DNA of 64,000 bases, taken from contig NZ_JAFMSU010000003.1 of NCBI RefSeq assembly GCF_017916365.1, forward strand, positions 682,001 to 746,000. Direction: 5' to 3'. The number at the start of each line of letters is the position of its first letter. Within the stretch, counting starts at the first letter, position 1. The notes beneath the pieces were generated by a model. That model was not told the origin of the DNA and searched no databases. It worked only from the letters and a program-made list of their open reading frames with translations. Position numbers and translations under genes: made by a program. Shown one piece after another: positions 34,773-41,042 of this stretch. Origin of the DNA: Rufibacter roseolus (GTDB lineage Bacteria; Bacteroidota; Bacteroidia; Cytophagales; Hymenobacteraceae).

Positions 34773-36419
34773 GTGGGATGTAGTTCATGTTCTAGTGGCG
34801 GCTGCGGCTCCAAAACCACTTCCCTTGCCGATGGCACCGAGGTAGTTGCGGGTTGCAAAAGCAACGGCGGTTGCAGCACGGGAGGCTGTAACCGGTTAAA
34901 TGTATTTGACTGGCTCTCAGACATGGAGATTCCCGTGTCTTTTAAAGAGTTTGATATAGTAGAAATCCGCTTCAAAGGCGGACGTAAAGAGTTTTTCAGG
35001 AACGTAAACCGGCTGCCGCTCATTACCGGCGATGCCGTGGTGGTAGACGTACCTAACGGTCACCACATTGGCCACGTGTCTCTCAAAGGCGAACTGGTTC
35101 GCCTGCAGATGAACAAGAAGAAGGTCCAGAACAACGACGAGATCCGGAGCATCTACCGCGTGGCCACCGAGAAAGACATGGAGAAGTTCAACCTCGCCCG
35201 CGAGCAGGAACCCACCACCATGTACCGCGCCCGCGCCATTGTGCAGGAACTGAAGCTTAAAATGAAGCTCTCAGACGTAGAGTACCAGGCCGATAAAACC
35301 AAGGCCACCTTCTTCTACTCCGCCGATGACCGCGTGGATTTCAGGGAACTAATCAAGAAACTGGCCGAGGAATTCAAGGTACGCATTGAGATGCGCCAGA
35401 TAAGCTTGCGCCATGAGGCCGGCCGTTTGGGTGGTATCGGGTCCTGCGGCCGCGAATTGTGCTGCTCTACCTGGCTCACCGATTTCCGGAGCGTGTCCAC
35501 CACCGCAGCGCGTTACCAGAACCTGTCTCTGAACCCCAGCAAGTTATCCGGCCAGTGCGGGCGCCTCAAGTGTTGCCTTAACTATGAGCTGGAAACCTAC
35601 ATGGATGCCCTCAAAGACATCCCTAACGTGAACCGTCCGCTCCAGACCAAAGCCGGCGATGCTTTCCTGCAGAAGACCGACATTTTCCGGCGCATCATGT
35701 GGTTCGGATACCGTGGCGACAGCAACTGGTTTCCGGTAACCGTGGAGCGCGTGCAGGAGGTATTGAAGATGAACGCCGCCGGCGAAATGCCTGAGAACCT
35801 GGCCGAGGAAGTGAAGAAGCAACTACCTGAAGTAGTAGACTTCGTGGAAGCTTTGGAAGGCAACCTTGACCGCCTGGACGAGCAATACAAAACCAAGAAG
35901 AAGCGCAAGAAAAAGAAAAAAGACGGAGGCAACGCCGCCACTGCTACTGAAGTGTTGGCCCAGGCCACTCCTACCCCCGAAGTGCGCAGAGACCGTCCAT
36001 CGGGCCGAGCGGTGCAGGGTGAACCCAAGCCCCGCCAGGAACGCGGTGAGCGCCCTGCTGGCGGAGAAGGGAAACCACCCAGGCCAGAGCGCGAGCAGCA
36101 GGCCAAAGGTCAGCAGCAGCAAGGCAAACCCCGCCAGGAGCGTGAGCGTGATCCTAACCGGCAGCCTAAAGAAGGCGGCAACCGGGAAGGCGGAAACCGG
36201 CCACCGCGCCAGGAGCGGCCCCAAGGGCAGCGTCCGCCGCAGAATAGGCCTCAGCCGGTAACCCAGGGAGCTGCGCCCGCTACGGTAGGTGCTCCAGAAA
36301 GACCAGAAGGTGGCCCAAGGGCAGAAGGGGAACAACGCTCCAGACGCAACCGCAACCGTAATCACCGGAACCGCAAACCGGGCAACCCAGAAGGCGGCAC
36401 TCCAAAAGCAGAAGGATGA
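34773..36419 (+). CDS. ricT: PSP1-domain protein, RicT type, with long disordered tail
   Basis: 548 aa beginning with GTG. The N-terminus is strikingly cysteine-rich (MGCSSCSSGGCGSKTTS, then GCKSNGGCSTGGCN: seven Cys in 32 residues), as expected for the iron-sulfur site reported for Ric proteins. The PSP1 core (about 40-290) has GSCGRELCCSTWL and SGQCGRLKCCLNYE. In Bacillus, RicT with RicA/RicF guides RNase Y-dependent mRNA maturation; RicA/F are not seen here. From about residue 370 the chain is disordered: a Lys run (TKKKRKKKKKDGG), then Arg/Gln/Gly/Pro repeats (QERERDPNRQPKEGGNREGG), suggesting RNA binding. The stop overlaps the gldH start (ATGA). Confidence 0.9.
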   Translation: MGCSSCSSGGCGSKTTSLADGTEVVAGCKSNGGCSTGGCNRLNVFDWLSDMEIPVSFKEFDIVEIRFKGGRKEFFRNVNRLPLITGDAVVVDVPNGHHIGHVSLKGELVRLQMNKKKVQNNDEIRSIYRVATEKDMEKFNLAREQEPTTMYRARAIVQELKLKMKLSDVEYQADKTKATFFYSADDRVDFRELIKKLAEEFKVRIEMRQISLRHEAGRLGGIGSCGRELCCSTWLTDFRSVSTTAARYQNLSLNPSKLSGQCGRLKCCLNYELETYMDALKDIPNVNRPLQTKAGDAFLQKTDIFRRIMWFGYRGDSNWFPVTVERVQEVLKMNAAGEMPENLAEEVKKQLPEVVDFVEALEGNLDRLDEQYKTKKKRKKKKKDGGNAATATEVLAQATPTPEVRRDRPSGRAVQGEPKPRQERGERPAGGEGKPPRPEREQQAKGQQQQGKPRQERERDPNRQPKEGGNREGGNRPPRQERPQGQRPPQNRPQPVTQGAAPATVGAPERPEGGPRAEGEQRSRRNRNRNHRNRKPGNPEGGTPKAEG

Positions 36420-38351: not shown

Positions 38352-38838
38352 ATTTCTGTTTCTTTTGTGCATTACTTAAAGCCCTCTGCCACCAAATCTG
38401 CAAGCGTTATAATCTTCCCCTTCGATAGAAGGGGAGGCCTTCTAAGAACGAATCGTTTCTGTTAAAGAACGGTTTCATGACAGTTTTATACTCTTGTGTT
38501 TACAGCCTCACATGAGGTGTTGAGCCTGATTGTGGCAGCAACTGTTTTGGGTTCGTTATCAACAAGATAGGCCTGAAACAGATAGCTCCATTTTTGAGGC
38601 TTTTCTAAAAACCCGGCATCTCCAACAGTCGGCAAAATCATTTTCATAATTTAAGCTTCATTTTAAGCAAAGTTTTTAAGGCTATTCTCCTACAGATTCT
38701 TTCTTGATTAAAAAATCGCAATGAATGAGTTAACCATGCAAACACCCGTTCGTATAGTATAAACACTTGCCATAGAATCTGGTATAATTTCAGGGTCTCC
38801 GGCAAGGGTATTCAAAACACCATTCACAAACTAAAAAC

Positions 38839-38844
38839 AAGGAG
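38839..38844 (+). promoter_or_regulatory. Strong Shine-Dalgarno site
   Basis: AAGGAG eight bases before the ATG at 38853. It implies high translation of the low-complexity protein. Confidence 0.7.
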
Positions 38845-38852
38845 ATTTAACC

Positions 38853-40982
38853 ATGAAAGACAATCAAAAAGAGCAGCAAAACGATAACCAGAGCTCCTCT
38901 TCTACCGGGTCATCCGGTGGGATGGGCACCAATGCTTCTTCCTCCTCTTCATCAGGTACCGTGGGCCAAAGCTCAACTTCAGGTTCCTCTCCTGGATCTC
39001 TAGGTTCTTCCGGCTCACAAGGAACTTCTGGTTTACAAGGCAGCACTGGCTCACCAACCGGCGCTTCTAGTGGAACTGCCTCTGGTGGAACTTCTTCTGG
39101 CACCGGCACATCAGACAGCTCCAGCTCTCCTACCGCCACTAGTGGTTCTTCCACTACTTCTAAAAAAGGATCTTCTTCTACTACCAATAGCGCTTCGGGA
39201 AGCAAAACCTCTGGAAGCAAAACATCCACTTCGGCTTCAACATCTTCTGCTACGCCAAAAGCCGGCGGCAGATCAGGCTCCTCCACTTCTGCCAAAGCGT
39301 CTGGAGATAAATCAAGCTCCGGCAAATCATCTAAGTCAGGCGCTTCTTCCGGCTCAGACAGTGCTTCAGGATCTTCTGCTTCTATGGGCAGCGGCATGGG
39401 CTACGGCGGCTCACAAGGCGGCGACTACGGCAACCAGGGCAGCTCTTCTATGAGCGGCATCAGCGGTGGCGGTAACTTCAACGGCGAGCAAGGTGGTTAC
39501 GGATCACAGGGTAACCAAGGCGGCTATGGCTCACAAGGCGGCCAGGGCGGATACGGTTCTCAGGGAGGCAACAGCGGCAGCTTCGGCGGCGGCAGCTCCT
39601 GGAACAACCATGACGACCAGCACAACCGTTACGGCGGACAAGGCGGTGGCAACTACGGAAACCAGGGCGGCTCTAACTATGGTCAGGGCGGTTACGGATC
39701 ACAGGGCAACCAGGGTGGTTCTAACTACGGCCAGGGCGGCTACGGCGGATCTATGGGCCACTCCGGCGGACAAGGCTTTGGCGGTGGTTCCGGCATGGGC
39801 AGCAATCCATACGGAATGAGCTCCCAAGGCGGATACGCCGGTAATTCTTCCCGTTCAGAGTCTGACCGCGGCGGCTATTCAAACTACGGCGGCTCCGGCT
39901 ATTACGGAAACCAGATGGGCTACGGCACTGAGAGCGGCTACGGCATGCACGGTGGCGGAGGCCAGGGCAGCGGCCACGGCGGATACAGCCAAGGCTATAG
40001 CAACCAGCAAGGCGGCTCTTATGGCTCTATGGGCTCCCGTGGCGGATCTTACAGCGAAGAGTACGGCTCACGCGGTGGATCTTCCCGCGGTGGTTATGAC
40101 GGAAACTCAGACTTTGACGGCGGCTACAGCCAAGGCGGAACCAGATACAGCACCCAAAACCAAGGTGGCCAGGGCGGCTCTAACTATGGTTCACATGACA
40201 TGGGCTCCAGAGGCGGCTACGGCGGATCTATGGGTTCAGACATGGGATCACGCGGAGGCTACGGCTCTTCACAGGGCGGCAACCAGGATTGGCAAGGCAG
40301 CGGCGGTTCACGCGGCCAGAACCGCGGTGGCGATAGCAGTGGCTACGGCTCTATGAGCGGCGGCAGCGGCCAGGGCGGTTACAGCACCTATAACTCACAA
40401 GGTGGCGATTTCGGCTCCCGTTCTTCACAAGGCGGAAGCGGAAGCCATGGCTCTTCACAAGGTGGCTACGGCTCAATGGGCGGTGGCAACTACGGTGGCT
40501 CCAGCTACGGGTCCAGCCAGGGATCACAAGGCGGCAACTACGGTGGCTCCGGCAGCGGAAGCTTTGGAGGCTCCAACTACGGAAACATGGGTAATGACAT
40601 GGGCTCCCGCGGTGGTTACGGCTCTTCAGGAACCGGATCAAGACAAGGCGGCTATGACCATGACCGCGGACACGGCGGTGCTTCTACCGGCGGTGGTTAC
40701 GGCGACCAAAGCCGTGATTACGGCATGGGCGGATACGGCCAGGGCGGTAGCAGCTACGGCGGCTCCAGCGGATACGGTTCTTCCTCTTCCGGCGGCATGG
40801 GTTCACGCGGCGGCTACGGCGGCACTCAGGGCGGACAATCCAGCTTTGGGGGCGGTGGTTCCGGCTACGAGAACCGTAACCAGTATCGTCCAGACCAGGA
40901 TCATGATGACCGTCGCTCCAGCGGTGACAGAGATCGCCAGGACCGTTCATCACGGGGCGGTTCTTCCAGAGATGACCGTTAA
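38853..40982 (+). CDS. Large low-complexity Ser/Gly/Tyr/Gln/Arg protein (prion-like and RGG-like)
   Basis: 709 aa, almost wholly repetitive, with no signal peptide or membrane segment, so probably cytosolic. It has three blocks. Residues 1-183 are Ser/Thr/Gly with Lys (last Lys at 161) and no Tyr. From Tyr184 to about 675 it is Gly-rich with short repeats such as GGYGSQGNQGG, GGSNYGQGGYGSQ, MGSRGGYGSSQGG and SRGG, without Lys or Cys. The last 30-35 residues are Arg/Asp/Ser (RPDQDHDDRRSSGDRDRQD, SSRGGSSRDDR). This resembles eukaryotic FET/hnRNP domains that form condensates. I know no family for it. It could be a stress or desiccation protein, an RNA-granule scaffold, or a structural protein. 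The start is fixed by AAGGAG. A terminator follows. Confidence 0.8.
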   Translation: MKDNQKEQQNDNQSSSSTGSSGGMGTNASSSSSSGTVGQSSTSGSSPGSLGSSGSQGTSGLQGSTGSPTGASSGTASGGTSSGTGTSDSSSSPTATSGSSTTSKKGSSSTTNSASGSKTSGSKTSTSASTSSATPKAGGRSGSSTSAKASGDKSSSGKSSKSGASSGSDSASGSSASMGSGMGYGGSQGGDYGNQGSSSMSGISGGGNFNGEQGGYGSQGNQGGYGSQGGQGGYGSQGGNSGSFGGGSSWNNHDDQHNRYGGQGGGNYGNQGGSNYGQGGYGSQGNQGGSNYGQGGYGGSMGHSGGQGFGGGSGMGSNPYGMSSQGGYAGNSSRSESDRGGYSNYGGSGYYGNQMGYGTESGYGMHGGGGQGSGHGGYSQGYSNQQGGSYGSMGSRGGSYSEEYGSRGGSSRGGYDGNSDFDGGYSQGGTRYSTQNQGGQGGSNYGSHDMGSRGGYGGSMGSDMGSRGGYGSSQGGNQDWQGSGGSRGQNRGGDSSGYGSMSGGSGQGGYSTYNSQGGDFGSRSSQGGSGSHGSSQGGYGSMGGGNYGGSSYGSSQGSQGGNYGGSGSGSFGGSNYGNMGNDMGSRGGYGSSGTGSRQGGYDHDRGHGGASTGGGYGDQSRDYGMGGYGQGGSSYGGSSGYGSSSSGGMGSRGGYGGTQGGQSSFGGGGSGYENRNQYRPDQDHDDRRSSGDRDRQDRSSRGGSSRDDR

Positions 40983-41011: not shown

Positions 41012-41042
41012 AAAGCCCCGTTGGTTTCCAGCGGGGCTTTTT
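41012..41042 (+). terminator. Terminator after the low-complexity gene
   Basis: 14-bp stem AAAAGCCCCGTTGG / CCAGCGGGGCTTTT (one G-U pair) with a 3-base loop and a T run. Confidence 0.85.

Follow-up and report, generated by a model that had tools for sequence, protein, structure and literature searches.

The gene and its product

The window, by which we mean the whole analysed stretch of 64,000 nucleotides from Rufibacter roseolus (contig NZ_JAFMSU010000003.1, positions 682,001 to 746,000), carries a gene for a protein of 709 amino acids composed of three low-complexity blocks (Table 1). A preliminary description drawn from the letters alone had given the coordinates and composition of this protein, together with its lack of tyrosine in the first block and of lysine and cysteine in the second, and all of these were confirmed, as was the AAGGAG reported before the start codon. 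The gene appears to be monocistronic. Its 5′ untranslated leader (38758-38852 in the window; loci L144-L167 in genus g3) measures about 90-175 nt and by look is partly conserved within genera.

Table 1. The disordered-protein gene, its blocks and its flanking signals, in window coordinates.
Feature	Position	Strand	Basis
Disordered-protein gene	38853..40982	+	Open reading frame, ATG start, 709 aa
Ribosome-binding site AAGGAG	38839..38844	+	Read from sequence; eight bases 5′ of the ATG
Block 1, Tyr-free Ser/Thr/Gly/Lys, aa 1-183	38853..39401	+	Composition; kept in 53 orthologs
Block 2, Gly/Ser/Tyr/Gln/Arg without Lys or Cys, aa 184-675	39402..40877	+	Composition; aromatic spacing in 53/53 orthologs
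Block 3, Arg/Asp/Ser tail, aa 676-709	40878..40979	+	Composition, also of ortholog tails
Near-invariant Rufibacter core, aa 314-365, containing MGSNPYGMSSQGGYAGNSSRSESDRGGYSNYGGSGYYGNQMGYGTESGYG	39792..39947	+	52 columns without a gap; dN/dS 0.05
Anchor motif RGGSYSEEY, aa 396-404	40038..40064	+	Cross-genus signature RGGSY(N/S/G)(D/E)EY
ECF-type promoter TTAACC-N15-CGTATAG	38730..38757	+	Conserved 5′ of all orthologs
Intrinsic terminator-like hairpin, then T run	41012..41042	+	Sequence and comparison of 3′ flanks

By composition, the first block consists mostly of Ser (39%), Gly (19%), Thr (13%) and Lys (6%), with Ala also among its main residues and Arg occurring once, and the first Tyr of the protein is residue 184. 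From there on, Gly (39%), Ser (19%), Tyr (10%) and Gln (8%) predominate, accompanied by Asn and Arg, up to a tail whose 34 residues include nine Arg and nine Asp. Altogether, the protein holds 48 Tyr, 28 Arg and ten RGG motifs. Sequence searches with it against Pfam, NCBIfam and PDB chains gave no match, and an AlphaFold2 model based on 16 aligned orthologs has a mean pLDDT of 36 with no residue above 70, which, low pLDDT being indirect evidence of disorder, is consistent with a fully disordered protein. At the DNA level, tandem repetition is slight: two weak arrays, each with about two copies, were all that was found, so the gene did not arise by recent tandem expansion.

The window protein has no visible hydrophobic stretch at its N-terminus, in keeping with the lack of a signal peptide claimed for it, and the inspected N-termini of its orthologs show no visible signal peptide or membrane segment. 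This, and a neighbourhood of PSP1, GldH, Exo_endo_phos and NmrA genes with no adjacent secretion gene, argues against a Gly/Tyr-rich structural or adhesive glue of a silk- or cuticle-like kind, perhaps with Tyr cross-links and released by lysis or some other route. The length and the Gly/Ser/Tyr/Gln composition, which resemble those of structural materials, and the absence of Cys do speak for such a glue, which we nevertheless consider very improbable.

Orthologs and their distribution

Orthologs were found in 53 genomes of the Hymenobacteraceae, belonging to four genera; they are single, frame-intact and mostly syntenic, and about 533-756 aa long. Within Rufibacter, each of the 16 genomes has a single ortholog, full-length at 620-756 aa and with its frame intact. 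Beyond this genus, a search with the single sequence found no homolog, because those of other genera are too diverged, as synteny showed: six of six genomes from three other genera encode a syntenic protein of 533-648 aa with unchanged block order, and proteins across the four genera are often only 26-45% identical. The syntenic place lies beyond the Exo_endo_phos neighbour, with PSP1, GldH and, in several genomes, NmrA nearby. In the window, the PSP1-domain protein (RicT type; 34773-36419, + strand), encoded just 5′ of GldH, itself has a long, disordered-looking C-terminal tail rich in Arg, Gly, Pro and Asn.

A profile of 12 sequences matched 49 of 120 genomes of the family, each time inside one large frame, and four further orthologs that it missed were recovered by synteny. 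In-match stops were reported in two cases (one TAG in G013, one TAA in G012) and nowhere else; they conflict with the intact reading frames at the same places, and the matched stretches may extend past the end of the frame. Another 51 genomes of the family are counted as without a match to the profile, a class that may include some with diverged copies, and the profile had no match in two further genera of the family, where the three neighbourhoods checked hold no such reading frame. A profile search across the order (194 genomes) found nothing outside the family, and a DNA search for the anchor motif across the class found none in 395 genomes, a sample that contained no positive genome; the same DNA pattern does match 39 loci retrieved in the analysis.

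Conserved features and selection

The order of the three blocks is kept in 53 of 53 orthologs, and so is the segregation of the basic residues, with 703 Lys versus 66 Arg in block 1 and 8 Lys versus 1,641 Arg in block 2. Cys does not occur once in 33,691 residues; in the window gene, 396 of 710 codons are one step from a Cys codon. Each ortholog has 36-66 Tyr, and gaps between aromatic residues are more even than in shuffled sequences (CV 0.51 versus 0.91; p≤0.05 in 53 of 53), to which short YGSQG-type repeats contribute. In Rufibacter, alignment columns of Tyr rank with the most conserved (mean conservation 0.91, 65% invariant), compared with Gly (0.89), Ser (0.83), Arg (0.80), Asn (0.79) and Gln (0.75). 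The number of RGG motifs ranges from 1 to 16 per ortholog, that of RG/GR from about 14 to 18; in some relatives RGG falls to 1-6 while the number of Arg is unchanged. The anchor GGSY(N/S/G)(D/E/N)E is present in 51 of the orthologs, G070 having RGGSYDDEY instead and G124 none.

In genus g4, of lower G+C (GC3 0.44), block 2 gains Asn (338 codons) and has only two Lys codons; AAY and AAR codons are one step apart, yet Lys is nearly absent from this block. Two g4 orthologs (L063, L066) have Asn/Gln in place of Gly/Ser in block 2, which brings them nearer to the composition of yeast prions, and retain Tyr, Arg and the exclusion of Lys.

Within Rufibacter, dN/dS (Nei-Gojobori) is about 0.19 for the whole protein, 0.05 in the 52-residue core versus 0.29-0.31 in block 1 and the tail, and 0.08 for the closest pair (dN 0.031, dS 0.37), values to be read with dS saturated for many pairs and the alignment of repeats uncertain. 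Because block order, Lys/Arg segregation and the absence of Cys are conserved and purifying selection is seen, the sequences strongly indicate that the gene is under selection and not a result of neutral repeat growth, in agreement with the preliminary description, which had suggested selection from the separation of Lys and Arg. It had proposed a search for homologues with the same block order and a comparison of synonymous and non-synonymous change, both of which bear out its view, and had named missing homologues or broken frames as refutation, where we found 53 intact orthologs. Repeat expansion without function, to which the indel-rich repeat segments that differ between species might point, was rejected on the intact frames in 53 of 53, the dN/dS values, the conserved promoter described below, the absence of Cys, the Lys/Arg segregation and the scarcity of DNA-level tandem repeats, and we regard its probability as close to nil.

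A promoter shared with stress-type genes

In Rufibacter, the region upstream of the gene is variable except for a near-invariant TTAACC-N15-CGTATAG, and AAC-N15..17-CGTATA is found at most 260 nt 5′ of the start in 53 of 53 orthologs, where dinucleotide shuffles predict 0.28. Promoters recognised by ECF sigma factors, such as SigW of B. subtilis, have the general form AAC-N16-CGTA. A search of 29 genomes for the exact pattern, which is rare, yielded 78 sites, and the flanks of 63 were read. Classified by eye from the peptides, with representatives confirmed by Pfam, these 63 sites precede 1) the disordered-protein gene (18), 2) a DUF892/YciE-type gene (18), 3) a DUF4142 lipoprotein (5), 4) an NAD_binding_9 oxidoreductase (4), 5) YtxH-CsbD (2), 6) an SDR of general-stress type (2), 7) LysM (1) and 8) GAF (1), among others; a stricter tally by regular expression leaves the first class at 18 and lowers the second to 14. 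Several of these are classical general-stress families.

A relaxed pattern occurs 5 times in the source genome versus 6 times in a reversed control and is not enriched, and the case for a regulon therefore rests on the recurrence of the promoter before orthologous genes. Judged by this recurrence, AACC-N15-CGTATAG apparently marks an ECF-type general-stress regulon in Hymenobacteraceae, of which the disordered-protein gene, sharing its promoter with the stress-type genes, would be a member; a literature search found no description of such a regulon in the family, and nothing bearing directly on it turned up for general-stress sigma regulons of Bacteroidetes, stress proteomics of Pontibacter or protein disorder in Rufibacter. 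We recorded the regulon promoter in the window (38730-38757) and at L061, L082, L192, L193, L209 and L218. It is also present in both genera that lack the disordered protein, and downstream of it at L205 and L217 lie reading frames whose small low-complexity products have in common the motif L(T/R)G(E/N)NADD(N/S)SGSGG, possibly a functional substitute in genera without the FET-like protein. The stress role that the preliminary description had guessed at gains evidence from this promoter and from the other genes behind it, from which we infer induction by stress.

A candidate stress-induced scaffold

We think it somewhat probable that the protein is a stress-induced cytosolic scaffold that would form, through its Tyr and Arg stickers, a condensate or gel with a protective or sequestering effect. 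On this reading, the gene would be read as a single unit from an ECF-type general-stress promoter, and its single-copy, cytosolic and wholly disordered product would accumulate under stress, upon which the chains would associate into the condensate or gel. The regularly spaced Tyr would serve as stickers, with Arg as their partner and Gly/Ser/Gln as the spacer background; the Tyr-free, Lys-bearing N-terminal block would form a brush that is soluble and carries positive charge; and candidate docking sites would be the conserved core and the RGGSYNDEY motif. The benefit would likely be protection or sequestration during the stress. In FUS-type proteins, the saturation concentration is determined by Tyr and Arg stickers (PMC8847598). 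The even spacing and the composition could instead be maintained for solubility, or for a gel or structural use other than liquid condensates.

A hydrophilic protectant of the LEA/KGG type, soluble and acting by volume exclusion or water retention, with a composition selected for solubility and not for phase separation, would be compatible with the promoter in common with general-stress genes, the full disorder predicted by AlphaFold2 and the near-neutral net charge. We rate it as rather unlikely, since the 36-66 evenly spaced Tyr kept in all 53 orthologs come at a cost to solubility and suggest cohesion. LEA/KGG proteins are Lys/Glu-rich and aromatic-poor.

The charge also bears on the role of RNA, with which the protein might condense according to the preliminary description. 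Orthologs have a net charge near zero overall, with medians of +6 in block 1 and -5 in block 2 plus tail, so that nothing points specifically to condensation with RNA; because the cationic RGG domains of FUS differ in this, we give RNA co-condensation a lower weight and favour Tyr-driven self-association with charge balance. A granule protein whose RGG boxes bind RNA, giving ribonucleoprotein bodies like FUS/hnRNP granules, would draw on the RGG and RG/GR motifs of every ortholog and on the precedent of a Bacteroides Rho IDR that condenses with RNA under carbon starvation (PMC13269538). The negative charge of block 2 plus tail, the lack of an RRM or other RNA-binding domain in the Pfam search, and the drop of RGG to 1-6 in relatives where the number of Arg holds make it unlikely.

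The fuller form of the scaffold reading, a first free-standing bacterial analogue of a FET low-complexity protein, 530-760 aa long with no folded domain, driven by a general-stress sigma factor, with a Tyr/Arg sticker grammar kept by selection as the sequence drifts and forming a stress body (condensate or gel) in Hymenobacteraceae, we put forward tentatively, as possible but short of probable. Most known bacterial condensate proteins are disordered tails on enzymes, while here the whole protein has a sticker-and-spacer make-up; it has no annotation in Pfam or NCBIfam, occurs as a single copy and is conserved across four genera in 53 genomes, and our literature search found no free-standing, conserved protein of this kind with a stress promoter. 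It amounts to a natural evolutionary experiment on which low-complexity features selection keeps (Tyr spacing, exclusion of Lys, absence of Cys, charge balance), in bacterial hosts where mutants are testable in principle.

Comparison with known systems

Like the FET proteins (FUS/EWSR1/TAF15), the protein has a Lys-poor Tyr/Gly/Ser/Gln tract with Tyr and Arg stickers and evenly spaced aromatics, and its composition is that of a SYGQ-type low-complexity region, by analogy only, as it has no sequence match among PDB chains. It also combines two marks of phase-separating prion-like proteins, even aromatic stickers and, as predicted, intrinsic disorder. Unlike FET proteins, it is bacterial, has no NLS and no sequence homology that we could find, carries an extra Tyr-free Lys block, and lacks an RRM (no Pfam match), a RanBP2-type zinc finger (no Pfam match; no Cys in 53 orthologs) and polycationic RGG domains, the Arg around its ten RGG being balanced by Asp/Glu. 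The earlier label "FET-like" therefore stands as a sticker-and-spacer analogy, by numbers of Tyr and Arg and by aromatic spacing, and not as membership of the FET family, which we rejected on the lack of RRM, zinc finger and positively charged RGG domains.

With LEA and YciG/KGG proteins it has in common disorder and an apparent general-stress promoter, shared with DUF892/YciE-type genes, but it matches no LEA or KGG family in Pfam or NCBIfam, is Tyr/Gly-rich instead of Lys/Glu-rich and reaches 533-756 aa. The prions of Clostridium Rho and Campylobacter SSB resemble it in being bacterial and of prion-like, low-complexity composition; characterised bacterial prions are domains of known proteins (PMC11175392), and these two lie beside folded parts, whereas the Rufibacter protein is low complexity throughout and Gly-rich.

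The nearest studied case within Bacteroidota is the IDR of Rho from Bacteroides thetaiotaomicron (BtRho), which is likewise disordered and divided into sub-blocks that carry short conserved motifs; on carbon starvation it forms condensates with RNA and ppGpp (PMC13269538). The BtRho IDR sits on an enzyme and condenses with RNA by way of Lys/Glu motifs, while the Rufibacter protein is free-standing and built on Tyr and Arg; stress-linked condensation, demonstrated for the former, is what we propose for the latter.
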